This document shows, in pieces, positions 4,877 through 22,717 of a stretch of 64,000 nt of DNA. The notes under the pieces are model-generated. The model worked only from the letters and a program-made list of their open reading frames with translations, ran no database searches and was not told the DNA's origin. Source of the DNA: Oceanospirillaceae bacterium (GTDB lineage: Bacteria > Pseudomonadota > Gammaproteobacteria > Pseudomonadales > Balneatricaceae); contig JABSRA010000017.1 in assembly GCA_013215445.1 (NCBI GenBank), forward strand, positions 1 to 64,000, read 5' to 3'. Position 1 is the stretch's first letter; each line of letters begins with the position of its first letter. Made by a program: the position numbers and the translations under genes.

Positions 4877-5884
4877 TTATTTACCAATCATTGAACTGAC
4901 TAAATCGTACAATTCTTGAGCGGGTAATCCCTTGTCGGTCATGGTGGCTATCCACTCATCGCGAATCGGAACAGCGGCAATTTTCTTGAATTCTGCTAAT
5001 TCAGCAGTGCTAAAAGAGATTTTTTTAATGTTCTTCTCAGCGAGCAGTGGCGCCCACTTGTCCATAGTTTTGCCCTGGTAATTGGCAATGTAATGGTCAA
5101 TAGATTCTTCCACAGAACCGAGTAAGGCTTCTCTATTGGTATCACTAAGCGCGGCTAGTGAATCAGAGTTGACCACCACTGGGCAGTTAACGGTTCCGGG
5201 GTTTAAATTCTCTGTCCACCATTTTGCTGCTGCCGTAGTACCAAAGGCCATATGTGCATGGGGTGCAAAGGCGACCGCTGAAACCACGCCTGAATCAAGT
5301 GCCATGCGCACTTCAGTCGCCGTTACTGACGTCGGTACGGCTTTAATACTGGCCAGTGCTTGACCGATACCGCCTGTGGCGCGAATGCGCATTCCGGCAA
5401 AGTCAGTTACTTTGGAGGGGGCTGTTCCGACACCAATGATGTTGTACTGGGGTAGGGGGGTGGGCATTAATAAAGTGGCATTCCAGCGCTGTAAGTCTTT
5501 GATGACTGCTGGGTGTTGGTAGAGTGCCATCGAAATTTTAGCTTCTTCAACTAAGCTAGATATACCTAAAAATGGTAGTTCCATGACCGTGATGCTGGGA
5601 TTTTTGTCGCGATGATAGCCCGCGCAAAACTGTGCCATTTCAAAAGCGCCGATTGAAATACCATCGAGGTTTTCTTTGTTTTTTGAAAGACCGCCATAGG
5701 AGAGCTTGAGAGTGAAATCACCCTTGGTTTTGGCTTCTACCAGTTCGGCAAGTTTTTCTACATGTACGGTGAAAGCACGAGGCTTGCCCCAAAGTGATAC
5801 ATTCCATTGCGTGGCTGCAGCGGCCTGCAGGGAGAGTGAACCGAGAATGACGGCGGAGGCCATCGCTAATTTGTTGAACTTCAT
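4877..5884 (-). CDS. dctP: TRAP transporter solute-binding protein (DctP type)
   Basis: The product (335 residues) is the periplasmic receptor of the DctPQM transporter. A Sec signal peptide (MKFNKLAMASAVILGSLSLQ, then AAAATQW) is followed by the DctP fold: WGKPRAFTVHVEKLAELVE, the MRIRATGG segment with the Arg that usually clamps the substrate carboxylate, and ALDSGVVSAVAF. I choose ATG 5884 because AGAGGAA lies just upstream and the signal peptide starts there; an in-frame codon at 5938 would put 18 charged residues ahead of the signal. It heads the operon. The retained Arg suggests a carboxylate ligand, which is family knowledge. Confidence 0.92.
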   Translation of the reverse strand: MKFNKLAMASAVILGSLSLQAAAATQWNVSLWGKPRAFTVHVEKLAELVEAKTKGDFTLKLSYGGLSKNKENLDGISIGAFEMAQFCAGYHRDKNPSITVMELPFLGISSLVEEAKISMALYQHPAVIKDLQRWNATLLMPTPLPQYNIIGVGTAPSKVTDFAGMRIRATGGIGQALASIKAVPTSVTATEVRMALDSGVVSAVAFAPHAHMAFGTTAAAKWWTENLNPGTVNCPVVVNSDSLAALSDTNREALLGSVEESIDHYIANYQGKTMDKWAPLLAEKNIKKISFSTAELAEFKKIAAVPIRDEWIATMTDKGLPAQELYDLVSSMIGK

Positions 5885-11137: not shown

Positions 11138-12595
11138 ATGATGAAAAATTTTTTAGCACTGGTATTGATAATCGTCAGCGGTGCTGTGCATGCGGGGATA
11201 AGTGATTTATTTAAAGATGAGAATGGCAGTACTAATTGGCAACATTTAGCCAATTGGACCAGCGGCAGCCTAATCATCATTTTGGCAATAGTGATTATTA
11301 GCTTAATTGTCGCTCACCGACATTTACGGAAATCTAATCGACAGCTACAGAATATTCGCGATCAGCTTGAAGACCGAGTGATAGAGCGTACTGCTAACCT
11401 CGATAGAGCCAATCAAAATTTGACCGATTCAAATCAGTTGCTGGGGGTTGAAGTCAAACAACATCTTGAAACCGGCTTACGCTTGCGCAGTTCTGAGTCA
11501 TACATTAATAATATTTTGGCATCAATGCCGCTAGTGCTGGTAAGTCTTGATGACAAGGGTCTGGTCACTCATTGGAATCCAAAAGCTGAGGAGCTATCAG
11601 GTATCGCTGCAACCTCGGCAATCGGTAAGAATCTATGGTCAGTCTATCCTGAAATAGTATTAACGTGGGAGCAAGTGACCAAGGTGATAGACGAGGGGGA
11701 GACGTACACTTATCCCCATCGGCAACGAGGTATCCATTTTTACGATGTGACCTTGTTTCCACTGCGAGGGGATGAAAAGCAGGGAGTAGTTATTTTGGTT
11801 AATGATGTCTCCAAGCAAAAACAAGCCGAAAATATGCTGGTGCACAATGAAAAGATAGCATCAATGACTGAATTAGCCTCGGCAATGGCGCACGATATCA
11901 ATACTCCTCTTCAGGGAATGTTACTGGATCTGCAAAGTTTTCAGCAATTATTATCCAAGCAAGCTGACAGTGAGGTTGTCGGTCAGCAAGCGGTGAAAAT
12001 GCTGAAAAATCTATTGTCTGATGCTTCCAAAAGAGCGGAAACGGTTGCCTCTATCGTTAAGAATTTACTCAGTTTTTCACGGGGGCGGCATGAGCAGCAA
12101 CAACTGCAACAAATTACAGTGTTGCTCGATAACGCGATTATGTTGGCCACGGACATGTTGGTGCTTCCCGGTGCTTTACAGTTTAATAAAATTGCCATCG
12201 TCAAAAATTATCAGCCAAACTTACCACTGTTAAATTGTTATCCGATAGAGTTACAACAAGTGTTTTTGAATATAATTCGCCATGCTTGTTATGCATTAGA
12301 AGAGGTTTCGGATCTTCAGTCGCCACAAATATCGATTAGCGTCTCTCTTGAAGTCGATAGTTTGTGGGTAACTCTGGCGCATAACGGTGCTGTTTTATCG
12401 GATGAAGAACAGACCACTATTTTCGAACCCTCTTTAAGTGTCATCTTGCCACAGCGAGATGTTGACTCGCAAAAACGGCTTTCATTTTCAAACTTTATTA
12501 TTACCGATCAGCACCAGGGGCAGATGGCGGTCACTTCTGATGCAAAACAAGGTACAAAATTTCACATTCAGCTGATGTTAGACAGCGTTAGCTGA
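11138..12595 (+). CDS. PAS-containing histidine-kinase-like protein with degenerate ATP-binding domain
   Basis: The 485-residue protein has a signal peptide (cleavage near AVHA-G), one membrane helix (about 42-62), a coiled coil (65-115), a PAS domain (about 118-225) and a DHp-like helix with His252 in an MAHDINTPL H-box. The C-terminal region is laid out like a HATPase domain but its motifs are changed: the N-box has His382 where the Mg-binding Asn should be (LNIIRHACYAL), the DxGxG box reads AHNGAVL, and no GxGLGL box is present. I infer that it does not bind ATP normally. It ends 12 bases before tmcA and is probably co-transcribed with it. No partner regulator adjoins. Confidence 0.75.
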   Translation: MMKNFLALVLIIVSGAVHAGISDLFKDENGSTNWQHLANWTSGSLIIILAIVIISLIVAHRHLRKSNRQLQNIRDQLEDRVIERTANLDRANQNLTDSNQLLGVEVKQHLETGLRLRSSESYINNILASMPLVLVSLDDKGLVTHWNPKAEELSGIAATSAIGKNLWSVYPEIVLTWEQVTKVIDEGETYTYPHRQRGIHFYDVTLFPLRGDEKQGVVILVNDVSKQKQAENMLVHNEKIASMTELASAMAHDINTPLQGMLLDLQSFQQLLSKQADSEVVGQQAVKMLKNLLSDASKRAETVASIVKNLLSFSRGRHEQQQLQQITVLLDNAIMLATDMLVLPGALQFNKIAIVKNYQPNLPLLNCYPIELQQVFLNIIRHACYALEEVSDLQSPQISISVSLEVDSLWVTLAHNGAVLSDEEQTTIFEPSLSVILPQRDVDSQKRLSFSNFIITDQHQGQMAVTSDAKQGTKFHIQLMLDSVS

Positions 12596-12607
12596 TCACT
12601 GACAGCG

Positions 12608-14815
12608 ATGATGTGCTTTGAAGATCTATATCGGCAATCTCAACGGCTCGCTCAACTCCAGGCGCATCGTCAATTACTCTGGCTCAGTGGTGAGCAAGAG
12701 TGGTGCTATCGGCAATTGCAGTCTATTCGGCCGCTATTACTGGCCCAGAACTCTGTCGCCGTGCTTAATAAAAAGGTTATTAAACAGCACTTCGATACCG
12801 GGCTGCAGCGCAATATCTGTCAATCGCAGGTTACCGCTAGCCAGTGTTCAGGCTTTTTAGGGCAAGAGTTAGAGAGTATCGTGTTTGATGGCTACAGTGG
12901 TTTTCATCCGGATAGCTTGGCAATTATTAGCGGTACTTTAGTGGCCGGCGGGGTCTTGGTACTGATCACTCCGCAACAGCATGATTGGCAGGGTTGGCAG
13001 GAACCAGAGTTAGATAATCTCTGGGCGCAACCTTTTACTGTGCAGGATGTGAAGCGTAATTTCTTGACCTGGTTAAAACAAATACTGCGCCAAGATAACG
13101 CGCTTAGTCGATACTCGCAAAATGGCACAGCAGAAGTGCCTAAGTTGGCCTATGACCTGGATATCTCCAATTTTGCTACTCAGGCACTGCTCGAACAAAC
13201 ACGATTTGTAGAGGGTTGTGCTGAGTACCTACTCTCTAATGATACTGCCTCTGCGGTATTAGCCGCTGCCAGAGGGCGGGGCAAATCTGTGGCTTTAGGG
13301 CTGCTAGCGAATGCTTTAGCTCAACATCGAACCTTGTATTTAAGTGCCTGTGATGTGCAAGCGGTACAGCAAGTTAATCACTTTGCCAGCTCAGCTCTGC
13401 CCTATTTTTCACCCTCTCAACTGCTGGCCGATAACTTCCAGCCGGCGGCTAATGCACTGTTGCTTGTCGATGAAGCGGCGGCAATTAGCGTGGATGTATT
13501 GTACCAACTGTCTGTGAAGTTTCCACAATGTGTGTATAGCACAACCACGCAAGGCTATGAGGGAACGGGGCAGGGTTTTGAACTACGTTTTTTACAAAAA
13601 CTATCCCGTGCTGATATACCTTATCGTTGCTATGAATTATTACTACCGATGCGCTGGGCGGCTAATGATCCCGTGGAAAATTGGCTAAATCAATTATTAT
13701 TACTCGATCTGTCACCCGTGCAGTCTGCTGTTGCTCGATTAACCGTGCAGGAGAGTACGAGTGATTACTGCATCGATAAGATTGAGCCGCAGCAATTGAT
13801 CGAAAACCCTAAGCTATTGCGCCAATTATATACTTTATTAACCCAGGCGCATTATCGTACTAAACCCAGTGATCTGAGAATTATATTAGACAGCCCCAAT
13901 ATGCATCTTTGGTTAGTGCGTGTTGAAGGCAGTATCGTTGCCGCCTGTTTAGTGGCCCAAGAGGGGCCACTGCAGAGTTTTACAGAGGATGGGCAAGGCA
14001 TGAACGGTGAGCAGTTATCCCTCGCTGTTTTTCGAGGGTTGCGGCGTCCTCGGGGGAATTTAATCCCACAAATTTTAATCGCTCAAGAGGGTGAACTCGG
14101 CGCAAAAGCCTTTAAAATAGCCAGGGTAGTTCGCATCGCGACGGCGTTTTCTCAGCGGCGAAAATCCTTGGCGAGCGCATTACTTGATGAAGTAACGCAC
14201 TGGGCTAAAGCGCAGCAGTTTAACTACATAGGAGCCAATTTTTCGATCCAAGATGATTTACTTAAATTTTGGCAGCAAGCGGGCTTTACTCTCTTGCGAA
14301 TTGGCAGTCAGCTAGATAAAGTGACGGCCAGTTATAGCGCTTTAGTACTTAAAAATCTGGCCGGTGATGATGAGCTTATTAGGCGTTTATCCCGACAGTT
14401 TTATTATAAATTTACCTATCAAAATGAACAATCGATGCTAATGACGCATTCGGACACCAAGCTATTTCTACAGCAGCCAGCAGTTAACCATCTACAGTAT
14501 TTGCAGGCTCAGCCTGGTTATCAGTTGTGGTGTAAACAGCAATTAGAAAGTTTTGCATTTTACTATCGACCGTTAGAATCTATCGCTTATCTTTTGCACT
14601 TGTTACTGACTGCCTATCCAGGATGCTGGAGCAGTGCTGCGATAGGTACTGTGTATGCGCGAGTCTTTTCGCTGTGTATTATTGAGCAAGTAGCCTACGA
14701 GGCGATATATAGTCAGTGTCAATTGAGTGGTTATCGCTCGCTCGTGAAAGAACTTAGAGCGGCAACCAGTGGGTTTCTTAGAGAATTAGACAGAGAAAAG
14801 CCCCATGCCAGGTGA
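12608..14815 (+). CDS. tmcA: tRNA(Met) cytidine acetyltransferase TmcA
   Basis: The enzyme makes N4-acetylcytidine at the wobble base of elongator tRNA-Met, using ATP or GTP and acetyl-CoA in the cytoplasm. The 735-residue product has the family order: an N-terminal DUF1726-like domain, a RecD-like helicase core with the P-loop AAARGRGKSVALG (about residue 220) and VDEAAAI Walker B, a GNAT acetyltransferase domain (RVVRIATAFSQRRKSLASALLDE region, about 495-550), and a C-terminal tRNA-binding domain. It is longer than E. coli TmcA (671 residues). ATG 12608 follows the kinase-like gene by 12 bases with no strong ribosome-binding site, suggesting translational coupling. Confidence 0.93.
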   Translation: MMCFEDLYRQSQRLAQLQAHRQLLWLSGEQEWCYRQLQSIRPLLLAQNSVAVLNKKVIKQHFDTGLQRNICQSQVTASQCSGFLGQELESIVFDGYSGFHPDSLAIISGTLVAGGVLVLITPQQHDWQGWQEPELDNLWAQPFTVQDVKRNFLTWLKQILRQDNALSRYSQNGTAEVPKLAYDLDISNFATQALLEQTRFVEGCAEYLLSNDTASAVLAAARGRGKSVALGLLANALAQHRTLYLSACDVQAVQQVNHFASSALPYFSPSQLLADNFQPAANALLLVDEAAAISVDVLYQLSVKFPQCVYSTTTQGYEGTGQGFELRFLQKLSRADIPYRCYELLLPMRWAANDPVENWLNQLLLLDLSPVQSAVARLTVQESTSDYCIDKIEPQQLIENPKLLRQLYTLLTQAHYRTKPSDLRIILDSPNMHLWLVRVEGSIVAACLVAQEGPLQSFTEDGQGMNGEQLSLAVFRGLRRPRGNLIPQILIAQEGELGAKAFKIARVVRIATAFSQRRKSLASALLDEVTHWAKAQQFNYIGANFSIQDDLLKFWQQAGFTLLRIGSQLDKVTASYSALVLKNLAGDDELIRRLSRQFYYKFTYQNEQSMLMTHSDTKLFLQQPAVNHLQYLQAQPGYQLWCKQQLESFAFYYRPLESIAYLLHLLLTAYPGCWSSAAIGTVYARVFSLCIIEQVAYEAIYSQCQLSGYRSLVKELRAATSGFLRELDREKPHAR

Positions 14816-14890
14816 CGGGAAAGGTAACACAGGGCAGTAGCAGCGAAGGTTTTTATTAAGAGTATTAAACAGTGACAATAGAGGCTTATC

Positions 14891-15103
14891 ATGGATTTAA
14901 AACCTGAACATCTGAAAAAAATAGCAACGATGAAGATGCCGTTTGGAAAATATGCCGGAAGGGTGTTAATTGATTTACCTGAGCCCTATGTCTGTTGGTT
15001 TGAGCGCAAAGGTTTCCCTAAGGGAGAATTGGGAGAGTTGTTGGCGACTTTGTACATAGTGAAGCTCAACGGCTTAGAGTCTCTGTTTAAGCCGTTTCGT
15101 TAA
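14891..15103 (+). CDS. DUF3820 family small protein
   Basis: The 70-residue protein has the DUF3820 signature MPFGKYAGRVLIDLPEPYVCWFERKGFPKG-like core (key residues: MPFGKYxG, LPxxYxxWF, GFPxGxLG). The family is described in databases as putative quorum-sensing-regulated virulence factor, a label carrying little functional evidence. GAGG precedes the ATG. It lies 75 bases after tmcA on the same strand and converges with the NtrC-like gene. Function unknown. Confidence 0.82.
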   Translation: MDLKPEHLKKIATMKMPFGKYAGRVLIDLPEPYVCWFERKGFPKGELGELLATLYIVKLNGLESLFKPFR

Positions 15104-15172
15104 GCCCTGTCGCTAGGTGAGATAGTGGCTGTGACTGGCCATTTTTAAGCTACTAATGATCGAGATGCCGTT

Positions 15173-16504
15173 TTACCCCAACAGTTTTTGCTCTAATTTG
15201 TTGTTTCTCGAACGACGATTTTTCTGCTTGAAATCTACAGGACTGAGACCATGCTTGTTTAATAGCTTATAAAAGTCAGTACGATTGCGCTCGGCAATTC
15301 TGGCGGCGTGCGTAACGTTACCTTCTGTTACTTGTAACACCTTGGTCAAATAATCCCTTTCAAAATTGGCGCGTGCCTGATTAAACGATAGCATTGCGGT
15401 GTTATCATCACAGATAATAGAGGCGATTAACTTCTCTGAAATTACCGGGCTCGTGCTGTCGATAACCACTTGTTTGACGACTTCTCCGAGCTGTTGTACA
15501 TTGTTAGGCCAAGTGGCTTTTGCTAATAAATGTAAAGCCCCTGGCGAAATATTACGTACTTTTCTATTGTGCTTTAAACTGTGTTCCGCAAGGAAGTGTC
15601 TGGTTAAAAGAGGAATGTCTTCTACTCTGTCGCGCAGTGCAGGAATGCTCAAGGTGATAATGTTAAGTAGGTAAAATAGTTCTTTATCAAAATAGCCCTG
15701 CAACATGATTTGTTCTAAGTTAATTTTGCACGAGCAAATTATACGTAAATCGCTGTCAGAGTTAGGCGCAGCGGCAATAGCACGTTGACAGCTCTGTAAG
15801 CTAGTGAGTAGTGAAAGTTGTAAGGGTGCTGCTAATTTATTGATGTTGTCTAAGAAAATAGTCGCTTTGGTGTCTTTGTTGAGGTTGTTGAGAAGCTGCT
15901 CATTTAATTGGTCTTCATCCAGTTTTGCGCAATCTATATAGATAAATGGTTTTTTATCGTTAGCTGCCACTGAGTGGATTGCCTTCGCCAGAAGTTTTTT
16001 ACCACATCCCTTAGCGCCTTGGATTACCACGTTGATATTAGATTCTGCGACATGGTGTGCCTGGTCTAATAATTTTTCCATTTCTTTGGTGCAGGTTAAA
16101 ATTCCGCTTTTCCAATCAGTATTATTGCGTCTCTTGGTCGACCTTAAAGCATTGCGGGTAATTTCGGTTAAATGGACAGGTTGCACAGGTTTAGCGATAA
16201 AAGCATAAATGCCCCTTTGGGATGCGACTAGCGTTTCTGCTAAAGCGGTACTATTAGTGGTGATTAATATAGGCAGCAACTGGTGTTGAGCTTGGGCTAA
16301 TTTATACAGTTTGTTGCCATTAACCAAACTTAATTGGAAATTAGTGATGAGTAAATCGATTTTATTTTGTTGTAATATAAACAGTGCTTGGTCGCCATCT
16401 ACAGTACAAAAAATCTCATAGTTTTGCTCTAGTAATAAATGCTTAACATGCTCTAAGTGCTCTCGATCCTCATCGGCAATCAGAATAGCTGTTTTAGTCA
16501 TCAT
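15173..16504 (-). CDS. Degenerate NtrC-like regulator: receiver, AAA+ domain without GAFTGA, Fis-type HTH
   Basis: The 443-residue protein keeps the three-domain order of sigma-54 activators: receiver (1-120), AAA+ (about 138-365) and Fis-type helix-turn-helix (378-420, GNVTHAARIAERNRTDFYKLL). Several defining residues are lost. The phosphoacceptor Asp is Asn55 (LLITNFQLS), while Lys105 remains. The P-loop GAKGCGKK (163-170) is present, but Walker B reads IFLDN instead of LFLDE. The whole L1 loop carrying GAFTGA is missing: only about seven residues link LNEQLLNN to TIFLDN. Sigma-54 contact therefore looks impossible. TyrR- and HupR-like proteins without GAFTGA act at sigma-70 promoters, so this may be a plain DNA-binding regulator. 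Confidence 0.85.
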   Translation of the reverse strand: MMTKTAILIADEDREHLEHVKHLLLEQNYEIFCTVDGDQALFILQQNKIDLLITNFQLSLVNGNKLYKLAQAQHQLLPILITTNSTALAETLVASQRGIYAFIAKPVQPVHLTEITRNALRSTKRRNNTDWKSGILTCTKEMEKLLDQAHHVAESNINVVIQGAKGCGKKLLAKAIHSVAANDKKPFIYIDCAKLDEDQLNEQLLNNLNKDTKATIFLDNINKLAAPLQLSLLTSLQSCQRAIAAAPNSDSDLRIICSCKINLEQIMLQGYFDKELFYLLNIITLSIPALRDRVEDIPLLTRHFLAEHSLKHNRKVRNISPGALHLLAKATWPNNVQQLGEVVKQVVIDSTSPVISEKLIASIICDDNTAMLSFNQARANFERDYLTKVLQVTEGNVTHAARIAERNRTDFYKLLNKHGLSPVDFKQKNRRSRNNKLEQKLLG

Positions 16505-16958
16505 TCCCTAACCGCTCCGTGTGAAATAAGCTTATTCATTAGATCCATCTTTCTATAATAAGGTGAGTATATTAAACAGTGTTACAATTGAACGTAAAGA
16601 AGCTTAATACTAGCTGTCTGTTGATTAATATATACTGAACAAGAGAGCTTTATTGTATTTTCAATTGCATCTTTAATCTGACGAATTCGTTATTAAAGAG
16701 TAAAAAAAAAGAATATATTATATTGTTGATAAGACGACTTGATTTTTTGTGAAAGACAACGTTATCTTTTTAGATTTTTAGTATACAAATATGTTATCCC
16801 TACTAATAGATTGTTGCTAGGGTTGGCTTACCATGACGGTTACTGTAAATGGTTAAATTCACCACCAAGAGTATTTCATAAAATAATTTTTAAACCAATT
16901 TAGTTTTAACATATTGTTTTTAAAATGTAAATTAGTTTTCATGACTTGAGTAATAGCA
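16505..16958. other. AT-rich intergenic region between divergent genes
   Basis: About 450 strongly AT-rich bases separate the NtrC-like regulator gene and the lipoprotein gene. Long A/T runs (around 16690-16760 and 16870-16930) are present. It probably holds both promoters and could be a nucleoid-protein binding region. I see no gene, convincing hairpin or clear operator. Confidence 0.4.
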
Positions 16959-17921
16959 GTGAATTTATTTTCGAGTAAGTATTTGTACGTACTGGGTGTG
17001 GTGGTTTTATTAATAGGCTGTGTTGATACCGTTAAGCCTCAGTCGGCGAATAATCAGCAAAACTTCATAAAATATTTAAGAGGTACTGTGTACCTAGAAA
17101 ATTCGCAGTACGAATTACGCCTTTGTGGGTCGAGTAGTATCGTCAAATTATTGGACCCTAATAATAAATTAATTTCACATATATATGAAAATAATGAAAT
17201 TATCCCGTCGATGTATGTGGAGTTCAAAGCAAAGGCAGTAAATATACTCGATTGGCAGCTAGAGCAATTGTTTTTCATCTCCAAGAAACCCAAGAAATGC
17301 TCTGACAAGGTGCTAACGCTTGAGTATTTGGTCAGTGCTGTTGAAGGTGATTGGCAAGCTGAAATTAAAGGTAATCAAGTTAATATAAATAAACGTAATA
17401 TATTTACTCAGCTGGCGTTTGTATCCAGTGAGGATAAGTGGGGCCGTTGGTCGGGAGAAATGCTCTTACCCAAGGGGATTCGCTTTAACATGGAGATAGT
17501 GCTGCGTGATAAAGATTGTATCGATGCTCTTGATCAATGGTACAGTTTAAGTGCCACGCTAAAGATCAACCGCGAGGTGCTAGAGGGTTGTGCGCGCACT
17601 GGAGGACGCGTTGAAAGTTTTGTCAGTGGTAAATACAGTAATTTACTGACGGTAGATGATGCTTTTATCGTGCTTAACCTCAATGAGGATAATTCAGCGG
17701 CATTGATTTTAGATTATAGAAGTGGTCATCCGCTGGTGGTTAATCGCGGACACTGGAAAATGCTAGAGAACCAAGTCATTGCCCTAAACTTGCCGGCAGC
17801 GAGTCATCAGCTGCAAGGCAGTGCTATGTTATTTCAAGTTTTTGATAATAAAGAATTACGCCTAAAGGGCTTCTCAGAGCTGTTAGGTGGGGCGGGCTTA
17901 AGGTTGCTGCCCCTAGAGTGA
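16959..17921 (+). CDS. Putative lipoprotein, function unknown
   Basis: The 320-residue product starts with GTG and has a lipoprotein signal ending in the lipobox LIGC (Cys21). Residues about 40-95 (RGTVYLENSQYELRLCGS, then YVEFKAKA) recall the small beta-rich N-terminal domain of NlpE/copper-type lipoproteins: an oxidoreductase-free OB-like fold with a CG motif. The rest has beta-strand alternation, paired Cys residues (about 187 and 212, an ALDQWYSL...EGCARTGG segment) and no catalytic motif I recognise. The start has a weak ribosome-binding site. It is convergent with the J-domain-like gene. Envelope location is well supported; function is not. Confidence 0.7.
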   Translation: MNLFSSKYLYVLGVVVLLIGCVDTVKPQSANNQQNFIKYLRGTVYLENSQYELRLCGSSSIVKLLDPNNKLISHIYENNEIIPSMYVEFKAKAVNILDWQLEQLFFISKKPKKCSDKVLTLEYLVSAVEGDWQAEIKGNQVNINKRNIFTQLAFVSSEDKWGRWSGEMLLPKGIRFNMEIVLRDKDCIDALDQWYSLSATLKINREVLEGCARTGGRVESFVSGKYSNLLTVDDAFIVLNLNEDNSAALILDYRSGHPLVVNRGHWKMLENQVIALNLPAASHQLQGSAMLFQVFDNKELRLKGFSELLGGAGLRLLPLE

Positions 17922-17945
17922 TACCTCAGTCCTAAGCACTGTTAC

Positions 17946-18407
17946 TTAATCAGAATTCTCACTTTGTTGAATCAGTAGCTCTCGAGCTGCATCTATCTGG
18001 GCTAACCTGTGTTTGCTAATACTATGGTTAGTGTTGTTATCGCGCATGATTCTTCGGTGGGCTTGGACAATTTCTTCCCGGCTAGGGCTATCTTTTAAGT
18101 GCAGTGCTGCTAGTGCCTGCTCCCTGTTTAAAATTAAGTCAGGCTGACTGACTGGGCCCGCCAGTAAGCGAATAAAGGGTATCAGCAACTTAGTCAGTGC
18201 TATTTTTCTATAGAGGGCCATTAGTAGCAGGGGAATGCCTGTGAGTAGGGGGAGTCTACCGGTGACTAGAAGAATGATAAATAGGCAGCCCAGGCAGATG
18301 AATAATCCTTTCAGTGCGGTGATTCCTTGTTTAGTTGTCGCATTTCTAAACCAATAGACGATGGCAACAATAGTGCAGACTAACAAAAAAATAAAAAAAG
18401 GATTCAT
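17946..18407 (-). CDS. Membrane-anchored J-domain-like protein lacking the HPD motif
   Basis: The 153-residue protein has two membrane segments (about 3-20 and 31-58), a short hydrophobic region (60-85), and a C-terminal approximately 60-residue segment that aligns with the J-domain of small membrane co-chaperones: ALAALHLKDSPSREEIVQAHRRIM, then QIDAARELLIQ. In genuine J-domains the loop between the two helices contains His-Pro-Asp, which stimulates DnaK ATPase. Here that loop reads RDNNTNHSISK, without HPD. I infer it cannot activate DnaK in the usual way. It converges with the lipoprotein gene, 24 bases apart. Confidence 0.7.
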   Translation of the reverse strand: MNPFFIFLLVCTIVAIVYWFRNATTKQGITALKGLFICLGCLFIILLVTGRLPLLTGIPLLLMALYRKIALTKLLIPFIRLLAGPVSQPDLILNREQALAALHLKDSPSREEIVQAHRRIMRDNNTNHSISKHRLAQIDAARELLIQQSENSD

Positions 18408-18543
18408 AGTTTACTCGGCTAAGCTGATTTATAGTTTAGAAATTGTAACGTATCATCCGGCATTAGGTATATTTATTAATGGTTAATCTGTTCTTTTATT
18501 TGCTGTTTTTAGGTGTGACTCTCACAAATTAAGGTTTTAAATT

Positions 18544-19530
18544 TTGAAAAAAATAAGATTAGTTGGTCTGTTGTTGGCGATTATTTATACCTCCTTTTGT
18601 CATGCACAAAAACAAATAATTACCTTAGGTTCCGGCGTTGAAACAGGCGTTTATTATCCTACTGGTGGCGGGATATGTCGGATAGTCAATAAACTCAAGC
18701 GAAAACCTAAGATTCGCTGCATATTGGAGGCAACCAACGGATCTGTATCCAATATTGCGCGAGTGCTAAATCATAGCTTGGATGTGGGAATCGCGCAATC
18801 TAATTGGATTTACAAGAGCTATCATCAAGAGCAACAAAATGACTCGAAAATAACCAGCGCTGGTGCTGATCAAGGTGCAGAGTTGCGTACGCTGTTGATG
18901 CTATACCCTGAGTACTTTACGGTGATAGTCCCCAAAAGCTCTGATGTCTACAGTTTTGATGATATTAAGGGTAAACGAGTGAGTATCGGTACACCGGGGT
19001 CTAGTCTCAGAGCGACGATGAACGATTTGCTGGAGAAAAAGGGCTGGCACTATCAAGATTTTATGCAAGTGCTCAGCTTAGATGCCACAGATCAGGCGAG
19101 CGCTCTGTGTCAGGGGCGCATCGATGTTATGATTTATATCGTCGGGCATCCATCGGGTATGGCCAGAGAGGCGACAGATGATTGTGATTCTCGCTTGGTT
19201 AGTGTCCGAGGGGCAGCAGTAGACCAGCTGCTGATAGAAAATAGCTATTATCGGAGGGCGATGATTCCGGGGGCAATCTATCGCGGCAATATTAAATCGG
19301 TAGCTACTTTTGGTGTCAGTGCTTCTCTATTTGCCAGTACTGCGCTCAGTGAGCAAACGGCATACTCTTTAGTGAAGGTGATCATGGAGCAGTTGAATGA
19401 GTTTAGAGGATTGCATCCCGCCTTTGCTCGCTTAGATCCTGAGCAGATGGTAAAAGGACCCTTTGCGGCCCCTTTGCACAAAGGGGCGTTGCGCTACTTT
19501 AAAGAAGTAGGGCTAATAGAAGATAATTAA
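18544..19530 (+). CDS. TAXI-family TRAP solute-binding protein (copy 1)
   Basis: This 328-residue periplasmic protein starts with TTG (AAGG about 10 bases upstream) and has a signal peptide ending near CHA-Q. It shows TAXI-family marks: LGSGVETGVYYPTGGGICRIVN near the mature N-terminus (landmark residues G-S-G-x-x-T-G-x-Y-Y-P-x-G-G), GIAQSNW, KGKRVSIGTPGSS and LDATDQASALCQGRIDVMIYIVGHP. It is a paralogue of the product of 21719-22717. No permease lies beside it; instead it converges tail to tail with a histidine kinase gene 16 bases away. It may deliver its ligand to that kinase, which is inference. TAXI ligands such as glutamate or ketoacids are known only for a few members. Confidence 0.88.
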   Translation: MKKIRLVGLLLAIIYTSFCHAQKQIITLGSGVETGVYYPTGGGICRIVNKLKRKPKIRCILEATNGSVSNIARVLNHSLDVGIAQSNWIYKSYHQEQQNDSKITSAGADQGAELRTLLMLYPEYFTVIVPKSSDVYSFDDIKGKRVSIGTPGSSLRATMNDLLEKKGWHYQDFMQVLSLDATDQASALCQGRIDVMIYIVGHPSGMAREATDDCDSRLVSVRGAAVDQLLIENSYYRRAMIPGAIYRGNIKSVATFGVSASLFASTALSEQTAYSLVKVIMEQLNEFRGLHPAFARLDPEQMVKGPFAAPLHKGALRYFKEVGLIEDN

Positions 19531-19546
19531 CACTGTTATCTTGGGG

Positions 19547-21121
19547 TTATGCGTTACTGGTGAGTTGTTGTGGTAGGACGGTAGCTGTGTTTAAGGTTAT
19601 TTGAAAATGCGCCCCTTTGATGCTTGGCAGGCAGTGTATTTCTCCCTTTAGTAAATGATGTACCAAATTGTAACAAATATGCATGCCCAGTCCGCTGCAG
19701 CCAATATTCCTTTTGCTGGTCGCGAAAGGCTCAAATACCTTGCTCTCCCATTCATTATTTAAGCCAACGCCGCTATCGGTGTAATCAATAATAATGCTCT
19801 GCTCTTTTTGGGTTATAGTGATTTTAATCGAAATTTTATCTCCAGCTTTGCCAGGTCCGTGAATAATGGAGTTAATGATCAAATTATTGAATATTTGATA
19901 GAAACTCCCAGGATAGCTGTCAAGCTCAATACGAGGGTCGCAGTCGATTGTAACGGTGGTTTTGCTTTTTCGCAGTTTAGGTTTAAGTGAAAGTAAAACT
20001 TCATTTATATAGTTTTGCAGATTAAAGACTCTGCGCTTTTCAGTCGATTGATCGACAGAGACTTGCTTAAAGGCGGTAATTAAGCTGGCGGCGCGCTGTA
20101 AATTATTACTGATCATTGCACTGCTTTCTGCGGTTATGTCAGCCAGCGCACCAGTGTATTGTGAAGTCTGTTGTTGTAAGTAAGATACGGCAGTATAAGC
20201 GATGCCAATCGGCGTGCTGATCTCATGTGCAACACCTGCTACCAAATTACCAAGAGAGGCCATTTTCTGGGACTCTAACAATTGTCTCTGGGTCTTCTGT
20301 AAATTGTCTAAACTCAGTTGCAGTTCTAGGTTGGATGATTGCAATTGTGCGGTACGCTCTTGAACTCGTATTTCCAGCTCTAGGTTGAGTAATGAAAGCT
20401 GCTGCTCGGCAGTTATTCTCTTTTGCATGTCGGTGTGCATACCAAATTGCATTTTATTAATAGAGTCGACTACGTTGGTTAGCTCGTCAGGGCCACAGTT
20501 GTCTCCTCTATGTAATTGTAGCTCAGAGTTGGGTTTTTCCAGTTGAATACTGCGGGCATGACTGGCCATTTTTATCAAATGCTGGGTGACCAGATGATGA
20601 AAAATAGAGAGGATAAAGAGCGACACAAGGAAGGTCTTGATGCTTTGGGAAAGCAATATAAGCAGCGCCTTGTCCCACAATCTGTGGTGTAAGTTATCTA
20701 GGGTGATGACAAGTTGTAAAGTCCCTAACAAGTATTCTTTATCAATATCTGAGTAGGTCAGTTTATATTCTTTTTCCAGCACTGATGCGTTTGATCGTTC
20801 GCCACTTGAATAGCGCTCATGAAACGGCGTTGTTAATAATACAAACTCTACGTCCCGCAGTTTTTTAATGCCATCTAATTGCAATTGAATTTGTTCCGGG
20901 CTTATTTCCCAAAGGCTGTTCTCTAAACTAGCGAGGGAGCTGGATTCAATTTGCTTTATTTGCTCATCGATAGCTGAGCGCTCGTATGTGTAGTCAAAAT
21001 AAAGCTGTGATCCGGTTGCTAGCAAGGTGATTAATGAGCTGCATAGAATGATCGACGTTAATATTTTAAGTGCCAGTGGATTTTCGGTTTTGTAGTGATT
21101 AAACAGGCGTCTAATGGACAT
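19547..21121 (-). CDS. Transmembrane sensor histidine kinase
   Basis: From ATG 21121 (GGAA eight bases upstream) the product has 524 residues: a membrane helix (about 15-38), a periplasmic sensor of about 120 residues (WEISPEQIQLQLDGIKKL is typical of sensors in this class), a second helix (about 155-180), a HAMP-like linker, a coiled coil and an intact kinase core. His299 lies in VAHEISTPIG; the N-box is FNNLIINSIIHG, followed by DSGVGLNN and GLGMHICYNLVHHLLKG. Thus autophosphorylation is expected. It lies between two TAXI binding-protein genes, so control of TAXI uptake is a reasonable inference. No receiver gene is adjacent; the nearest is at 26364. Confidence 0.9.
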   Translation of the reverse strand: MSIRRLFNHYKTENPLALKILTSIILCSSLITLLATGSQLYFDYTYERSAIDEQIKQIESSSLASLENSLWEISPEQIQLQLDGIKKLRDVEFVLLTTPFHERYSSGERSNASVLEKEYKLTYSDIDKEYLLGTLQLVITLDNLHHRLWDKALLILLSQSIKTFLVSLFILSIFHHLVTQHLIKMASHARSIQLEKPNSELQLHRGDNCGPDELTNVVDSINKMQFGMHTDMQKRITAEQQLSLLNLELEIRVQERTAQLQSSNLELQLSLDNLQKTQRQLLESQKMASLGNLVAGVAHEISTPIGIAYTAVSYLQQQTSQYTGALADITAESSAMISNNLQRAASLITAFKQVSVDQSTEKRRVFNLQNYINEVLLSLKPKLRKSKTTVTIDCDPRIELDSYPGSFYQIFNNLIINSIIHGPGKAGDKISIKITITQKEQSIIIDYTDSGVGLNNEWESKVFEPFATSKRNIGCSGLGMHICYNLVHHLLKGEIHCLPSIKGAHFQITLNTATVLPQQLTSNA

Positions 21122-21718
21122 TTTAAATTCCAAGGTAAAGAAAATCATTGCTAAGTTATCGAAGCTAATAAAAAGATTAAATCCCATCCGTTCTATTTTT
21201 TCTAAAAGTATTATATACAAGCATGGTCAATCTGGAAGAGTAGGCCTGCATATTAGTGCATTTATAGCTGGGTGGGAGGGGTGGTTGACTGGCTTTAAGG
21301 CATGACGTTGTTTTTCAGTCAGCTGTATATTGGTTTAAGGCGTTGCTAGTAAAAATTATTAAAAATGACCAGGCAGGAAGAGGCTAAAAGAGAGGGTAAC
21401 AGTGATTTTAGCTGAATTGGCACGGAAGGATGCTTAATTGGCGCGGCAGATAGTAAGAGTGAAGTTTTTTATAGGTATTGTTGTACCATGATTGATCACT
21501 ACTGAATCATAGCTTAAAAGCATGCGCTGTCTGTGCTTTATACGGCACAGTCAAATTGTTTTTAGGGAACAATATCAGCCATTATCAGTAATGTTTCTAT
21601 AAATAGCACTTTGATAATAGCAGGGCTCTCTCCGTATTGGCGAATAGGTATCACTGACCGATGAGGTAAAGCCTGTTCACCAATTTATAACTTTCACATA
21701 AAAATAATAAGGGTTCTT
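21122..21718. other. Intergenic region between sensor kinase and TAXI gene
   Basis: About 600 bases separate these divergent genes. The half near the kinase has a plus-strand frame of 63 codons that looks like a shadow. The half near the TAXI gene should hold its promoter. AAGG (AATAAGGGTTCTT) precedes the TAXI ATG. I see no clear hairpin. Confidence 0.4.
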
Positions 21719-22717
21719 ATGTCTCTTAATAAAAAATCAATAAAAAATCAATTAGCAGCTGCAATTTTTTCCGGCAGTATTGCTATTGCAGCATCTTTCT
21801 CAGGTGCTCTCTCAGCAGCAGAAACTTTCGTTACTATAGGGACTGGTGGTCAAACTGGCGTTTATTATGTGGTAGGTGGCTCTATTTGCCGTTTAGTGAA
21901 TAAAAAAACCAAAGAGCACGGTATCAAATGTACCCATACTACAGGTGGCTCCGTTAAGAATATCAATGGCATTAAAAACGGTGACCTAGATATGGGTGTT
22001 GCTCAATCTGATTGGCAGTTCCATGCGTACAATGGAACATCACCAGAGGAGTTTCCCGAGGGAGCGTTTAAAGAGTTGCGTGCTGTGTTCTCTGTTCACG
22101 GCGAGCCCTTCACCGTTGTTGCCCGTAAAGATTCAGGTATCAAAACTTTTGCTGATTTAAAAGGTAAGCGTGTAAACGTGGGAGCTCCAGGTTCAGGACA
22201 ACTAGGCACAATGAAAGTTGTGATGAAAGAGCTAGGTTGGACGATGGATGATTTCGCACTGGCTGCACAGTTAAAATCTTCTGAGCAAGCACAGGCACTA
22301 TGTGATAACAACGTAGATGCAATTATATTCACAGCGGGTCATCCTAATGGCTCTATCAAAGAGGCAAGCACATCATGTGATGTGACGCTGATACCTGTTG
22401 AGGGACCAGTATTTGATAAGCTTATTACCGATAATGCTTATTATGCAAAAGCTACTGTACCTGCGGGCATGTACGAGGGGACTGATGTTGACGTCACTAC
22501 GTTTGGAGTAGGTGCAACTTTCGTAAGTTCTACTGCTACAAGCGAAGAAACGATGTACCACATCGTTAAATCAGTATTTGAGAACTTCAAGCGTTTTAAG
22601 AAGCTGCACCCAGCATTTAAGAACTTGAAGAAAGAAGACATGATAGTTGATAATCTATCAGCACCGTTACACGCCGGTGCGATTAAGTACTACAAAGAAG
22701 TAGGGTTAATTAAATAA
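21719..22717 (+). CDS. TAXI-family TRAP solute-binding protein (copy 2)
   Basis: This 332-residue receptor has a long signal peptide (cleavage near SAAE) and the TAXI core: IGTGGQTGVYYVVGGSICRLVN-type opening (landmarks G-T-G-G-Q-T-G-x-Y-Y), MGVAQSDWQFH, GKRVNVGAPGSGQ, QAQALCDNNVDAIIFTAGHPNG and a C-terminal LHAGAIKYYKEVGLI. It is followed after a hairpin by the fused TRAP permease, so it is the transport receptor of the system. It is a clear paralogue of the 18544-19530 product: the N-terminal GVYY, ICR(I/L)VN and C-terminal G(A)(L/I)(R/K)Y(F/Y)KEVGLI match position by position. Confidence 0.93.
   Translation: MSLNKKSIKNQLAAAIFSGSIAIAASFSGALSAAETFVTIGTGGQTGVYYVVGGSICRLVNKKTKEHGIKCTHTTGGSVKNINGIKNGDLDMGVAQSDWQFHAYNGTSPEEFPEGAFKELRAVFSVHGEPFTVVARKDSGIKTFADLKGKRVNVGAPGSGQLGTMKVVMKELGWTMDDFALAAQLKSSEQAQALCDNNVDAIIFTAGHPNGSIKEASTSCDVTLIPVEGPVFDKLITDNAYYAKATVPAGMYEGTDVDVTTFGVGATFVSSTATSEETMYHIVKSVFENFKRFKKLHPAFKNLKKEDMIVDNLSAPLHAGAIKYYKEVGLIK

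Follow-up and report, generated by a model that had tools for sequence, protein, structure and literature searches.

What can an NtrC-type response regulator still do once it has lost its phosphoacceptor, its GAFTGA loop, its catalytic residues and its kinase? The question is raised by one gene in the 64,000-nucleotide stretch of DNA from an Oceanospirillaceae bacterium analysed here (the window; Table 1). A first-pass annotation of the letters alone had reported an Asn55 in place of the receiver aspartate, an LDN Walker B motif and the loss of L1 with GAFTGA, next to a retained P-loop and Fis-type helix-turn-helix (HTH), and all of these were borne out by Pfam matches and by alignment with orthologs. 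The protein matches Response_reg (residues 7-115, 58 bits), AAA_lid_14 and HTH_8, and it matches Sigma54_activat in two pieces (profile positions 3-70 and 91-167), with profile positions 71-90 missing; in the alignment the GAFTGA region is a gap of about 15 columns. The phosphoacceptor Asp is replaced by Asn55, the second acidic residue of the receiver has changed from D to E, and Walker B has changed from DE to DN. The list of losses was nevertheless an understatement. At the positions that in the NtrC family form the arginine fingers, the glutamate switch and sensor II, both arginine fingers are replaced (R to Asp273 and R to Leu279), the glutamate-switch N has become Asp191 and the sensor-II R has become Gln337; the residue after the P-loop lysine has changed from E to Lys170. 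The lysine itself, Lys169, is present in 103 of 103 aligned rows, and the recognition helix, RNRTDFYKLL, is identical to that of intact orthologs.

Table 1 Features of the locus, in window coordinates
Feature	Position	Strand	Description	Basis
Degenerate GlrR (QseF) ortholog	15173..16504	-	REC-AAA+-Fis HTH, 443 aa, ATG start	Profile matches and ortholog alignment
Pseudo-receiver domain	16160..16486	-	Residues 7-115; Asn55 at 16340-16342	
P-loop	15995..16018	-	GAKGCGKK, residues 163-170; Lys169 retained	
L1/GAFTGA deletion site	15881..15886	-	About residues 207-208	
Walker B	15845..15850	-	Asp219-Asn220 (DE in intact orthologs)	
Lost arginine-finger positions (two)	15668..15688	-	Asp273 to Leu279	
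Fis-type HTH	15251..15388	-	Residues 373-418; 0 of 23 invariant positions lost	
Conserved footprint upstream of the gene	16577..16619	-	Candidate promoter or operator	Six aligned species
Divergent predicted lipoprotein gene (cluster c2)	16959..17921	+	Conserved glrR neighbour in much of the family	

By profile match and gene order, the gene is the ortholog of GlrR (QseF), the response regulator of the GlrK-QseG-GlrR system. GlrR is its best NCBIfam match at 344 bits, the next model reaching 190; the curated cut-off of the GlrR model, 763, lies above both the window protein and the intact orthologs tested from other genera of the family (685-695). In intact loci glrK stands directly upstream of glrR, mostly together with a small QseG-like lipoprotein gene, which is the arrangement of the published qseEGF operon (PMC6075780). 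Every intact locus scanned has a glrK match upstream of glrR, one contig ending inside glrK. The window gene holds the same syntenic position, adjoining c2 and near c4, c6 and TmcA, with glrK and qseG, which sit between c2 and glrR in intact loci such as L061, missing. Throughout the window genus, glrR has neither GlrK nor QseG beside it, and whole-genome searches for a GlrK ortholog returned generic kinases only, apart from genome G002, in which the kinase belongs to a separate GlrKR-like pair. The c2 lipoprotein itself has no Pfam match. Just upstream of glrK, nine intact loci (L062, L063, L064, L066, L067, L068, L069, L070 and L071) encode a small secreted protein whose motifs resemble EF hands.

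The first-pass annotation had allowed for a gene broken only recently, to be recognized by loop-bearing homologues at the same locus, or for an error in sequencing. Six further species of this marine genus (Nitrincolaceae/Oceanospirillaceae; among the records, those with names are Oceanospirillaceae MAGs and the bone-worm symbiont Osedax symbiont Rs1) carry the same degenerate form, open over its full length and 84-91% identical, which argues against both. Homologues with the loop intact do exist, but in other genera. In 7 of 7 species Asn55 replaces the phosphoacceptor, and the GAFTGA loop, the Walker B DE and the two arginine fingers are absent. Pairwise pN/pS in the genus is 0.085 overall, 0.036 in the HTH and 0.097 in the receiver, values that are rough given that synonymous sites are near saturation. 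Between the window and its nearest species the degenerate GlrR is 91% identical, compared with 56-57% for TmcA and the c2 lipoprotein (57% for TmcA, the tRNA-Met cytidine acetyltransferase at 12608-14815). On these comparisons, the degenerate form has become fixed in the genus and is under purifying selection. A pseudogene in decay, or an artefact of assembly, would suit the many missing catalytic residues and the great length of the stem branch leading to the genus in the GlrR tree (1.98 changes per column). We rejected this explanation on the low overall pN/pS, the better conservation of GlrR than of its neighbour genes and the recurrence of the same full-length form in seven assemblies, and consider it very unlikely.

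To locate the losses we took the 169 columns that are at least 97% invariant across 82 intact rows, some of which share a genome. In all genus members the receiver has lost 20 of its 38 such columns, the AAA+ core 47 of 85 and the lid 6 of 19; the HTH has lost none of its 23. Around the P-loop three of the seven invariant positions have drifted; ATP binding without hydrolysis is plausible from the kept Lys169, and with this drift it may be weak. An AlphaFold model of the window protein keeps the REC, AAA+ and HTH folds (mean pLDDT 80), with low confidence at residues 58-63 and 88-97. The retained receiver fold, together with a receiver pN/pS that is low despite its lost invariant positions, lends some weight to the idea that the pseudo-receiver works as a switch by binding a ligand or another protein and that the regulator still responds to a signal instead of acting constitutively, as does the fact that VpsR and FleQ, both structural neighbours, have been solved with c-di-GMP. 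However, neither a partner gene nor a ligand motif was identified and the model is weak in the two receiver stretches named above, and we regard such a switch as unlikely. In one survey, pseudo-receivers accounted for about 6% of the receiver domains of bacteria (PMC12632262).

Several known regulators share part of this pattern. GlrR/QseF, which regulates glmY and rpoE in E. coli (PMC6075780), is the closest by family match, domain order, an HTH like that of the intact family orthologs and the locus beside the c2 lipoprotein, but the window protein lacks the phosphoacceptor, GAFTGA, the arginine fingers, GlrK and QseG. The NtrC proteins of Caulobacter and Rhodobacter capsulatus are likewise NtrC-type response regulators with an L1/GAFTGA deletion, and they act at sigma-70 promoters; in both, however, the phosphorylation site is kept and important, and Caulobacter NtrC has its kinase NtrB (PMC10274813). 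HupR, TyrR, DhaR and VpsR are described as homologs with a defective GAFTGA, as in the window protein, and TyrR, DhaR and HupR are reported to be sigma-70 dependent (PMC3162934). These belong to other families, none is a GlrR without its kinase, and VpsR retains its phosphoacceptor Asp (PMC10274813). A structure search with the window protein gave no new relative; the closest solved full-length structure is NtrX of Brucella abortus (5m7n, 5m7o, 5m7p), which also lacks GAFTGA in the aligned stretch but is of another family and retains the arginine-finger stretch FREDLFHRL. The P-loop lysine expected of a GAFTGA-less NtrC-type sigma-70 regulator is present in the window protein. Titles, abstracts and passages of the literature on QseF/GAFTGA and on HupR/NtrC/TyrR, a search with subscription papers mostly outside it, contained no report of a degenerate GlrR. 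The first-pass annotation had called the combined loss unusual. GAFTGA-less regulators at sigma-70 promoters, and hence the loss of GAFTGA alone, were already known (PMC3162934, PMC10274813); what is new is the combination in GlrR, apparently arisen twice.

For a protein with no phosphoacceptor, kinase, sigma-54 loop or catalytic set, constitutive binding to DNA at sigma-70 promoters, perhaps with ATP still in the P-loop, is the simplest interpretation, and published regulators that lack GAFTGA set a precedent for it (PMC10274813, PMC3162934). The earlier proposal of a phosphorylation- and sigma-54-independent regulator is a natural one given that the phosphoacceptor, loop and catalytic residues are gone and the P-loop and HTH are kept, and judged by its sequence the protein is most likely a DNA-binding protein of that kind; the proposal had missed the GlrR identity, the loss of GlrK and QseG, the fixation in the genus and the second lineage described below. 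We think it reasonably probable that kinase loss was followed by erosion of the catalytic parts under continued selection for DNA binding, and that the protein is now a constitutive regulator at sigma-70-type promoters. GlrR itself would have been inherited vertically, in a lineage from which its cognate kinase, GlrK, and the QseG lipoprotein disappeared. Selection on phosphorylation, ATP hydrolysis and sigma-54 contact would then have been relaxed and those parts would have eroded, with DNA binding remaining under strong selection. The degenerate GlrR would act constitutively by occupancy, as a repressor or a simple activator, and the P-loop AAA+ domain, with or without bound ATP, would serve assembly and not as a motor.

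Which sites such a protein might bind was approached through the intact loci. Within 1200 bases before glrK we looked for a TGTC-N10-GACA site lying 80-200 bases before a TGGCAC-N5-TTGC-like promoter with up to two mismatches. Both elements occur in 10 of 28 intact Nitrincolaceae-type loci, compared with a mean of 0.02 loci and a maximum of 1 in 100 dinucleotide shuffles, and in 2 of 9 Halomonadaceae loci, compared with 0 in shuffles; the spacing from site to promoter is mostly 106-126 bases, and the remaining intact loci lack one or both elements under these criteria. The site is presumably that of GlrR, judging by its location and by the E. coli motif. These counts speak for a sigma-54 promoter of the glrK operon under GlrR control in some members of the family. 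The first-pass annotation had pointed to 16505-16958 as a region to which the regulator might bind; binding there through the ancestral operator is unsupported, since no TGTC-N10-GACA site occurs in window positions 12000-22000. The conserved footprint upstream of the gene (Table 1) has other matches across the genus, which are not at corresponding genes. The upstream regions of rpoE in 11 genomes, intact and degenerate, contain neither an exact operator nor a sigma-54 box, and an Rfam search of seven loci for a GlmY-like RNA gave nothing at the gathering threshold. Neither the rpoE regions nor the seven genus genomes, in which the GlrR-type operator pattern is no commoner than its reversed control, yielded a target for the regulator, which counts against the constitutive reading. 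At locus L182 a perfect palindrome, TGTCTCTAAAAAGAGACA, lies at about 4994-5011 (G000:C138:134493-134510) upstream of a small gene; it is identical to a site upstream of glrK in L140 and may be an unrelated operator.

Besides the window protein, the window's genome has 15 full-length Sigma54_activat matches, 13 of them at loci with an exact GAFTGA in a motif scan. Two loci, L006 (G000:C13:12772-13275) and L011 (G000:C154:9805-10302), read GAFTDA and GAFTSA, respectively, in translation. With so many such activators and an unchanged HTH, the protein could conceivably be an antagonist that occupies former GlrR activating sites or joins mixed oligomers and so keeps a different enhancer-binding protein from working at sigma-54 promoters, and G002 does carry a second GlrKR-like pair with GAFTGA intact. 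No second GlrR-like pair was found in the other genus genomes, the window's own included, and the operator pattern TGTCKCN7MGACA is not enriched in the seven genus genomes (3-6 matches per genome versus 7-24 for the reversed control); we judge an antagonist improbable. The retention of many sigma-54 activator genes could also be read as favouring activation of sigma-54 promoters by a GAFTGA-free route. However, the protein has lost the L1 loop, the Glu of Walker B and the two arginine fingers, and GAFTGA is described as necessary for the interaction with sigma-54 (PMC10274813), and we find this route scarcely credible.

A second degenerate clade was found in seven rows: Marinobacterium litorale, M. 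ramblicola, M. mangrovicola and M. lutimaris, two Marinobacterium MAGs and genome G010. It keeps the phosphoacceptor Asp and most of the GAFTGA loop; the second acidic residue is Gln, the receiver Thr and Lys are lost, and there are changes in Walker B and at the two arginine fingers. These loci are also without glrK and qseG, and G010 has a GlrK-like kinase elsewhere in its genome, beside a separate GlrR-like gene. The GlrR tree, built with the catalytic columns removed, joins the two degenerate clades (98/97) on long branches, which by itself favours a single loss, although constraining the second clade to group with relatives that have the kinase gives a tree that is not rejected (p-AU 0.088). 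In the c2 tree (100/99), the TmcA tree (99/98) and the RpoB tree (99/98 for G010 with G012) alike, the second clade groups with Marinobacterium that carry the kinase and is separate from the window genus. Since these three trees separate the clades, two independent losses of the kinase and catalytic parts are favoured, but not proven, despite the GlrR tree. Loss of GlrK and QseG might repeatedly convert GlrR, its signal input, motor and sigma contact gone and its DNA-binding domain kept, into a pseudo-enzyme that either regulates sigma-70 promoters in a fixed manner or blocks the sites from which GlrR once activated, a reading to which we give slightly less than an even chance. If true, the two lineages would amount to natural replicates of the conversion within a single family. 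The family would also present a series, from intact GlrR with its kinase through a partly degenerate kinase-less form to a fully stripped form, with members that share nearly the same DNA-binding domain, and it would become testable what an enhancer-binding protein does after kinase loss and whether there is any benefit in retaining ATP binding by itself. Separately, loci L055 (G002:C7), L054 (G010:C39) and L056 (G018:C38) each contain a second, more distant GlrR-like gene with an intact GAFTGA and an adjacent GlrK-like kinase.
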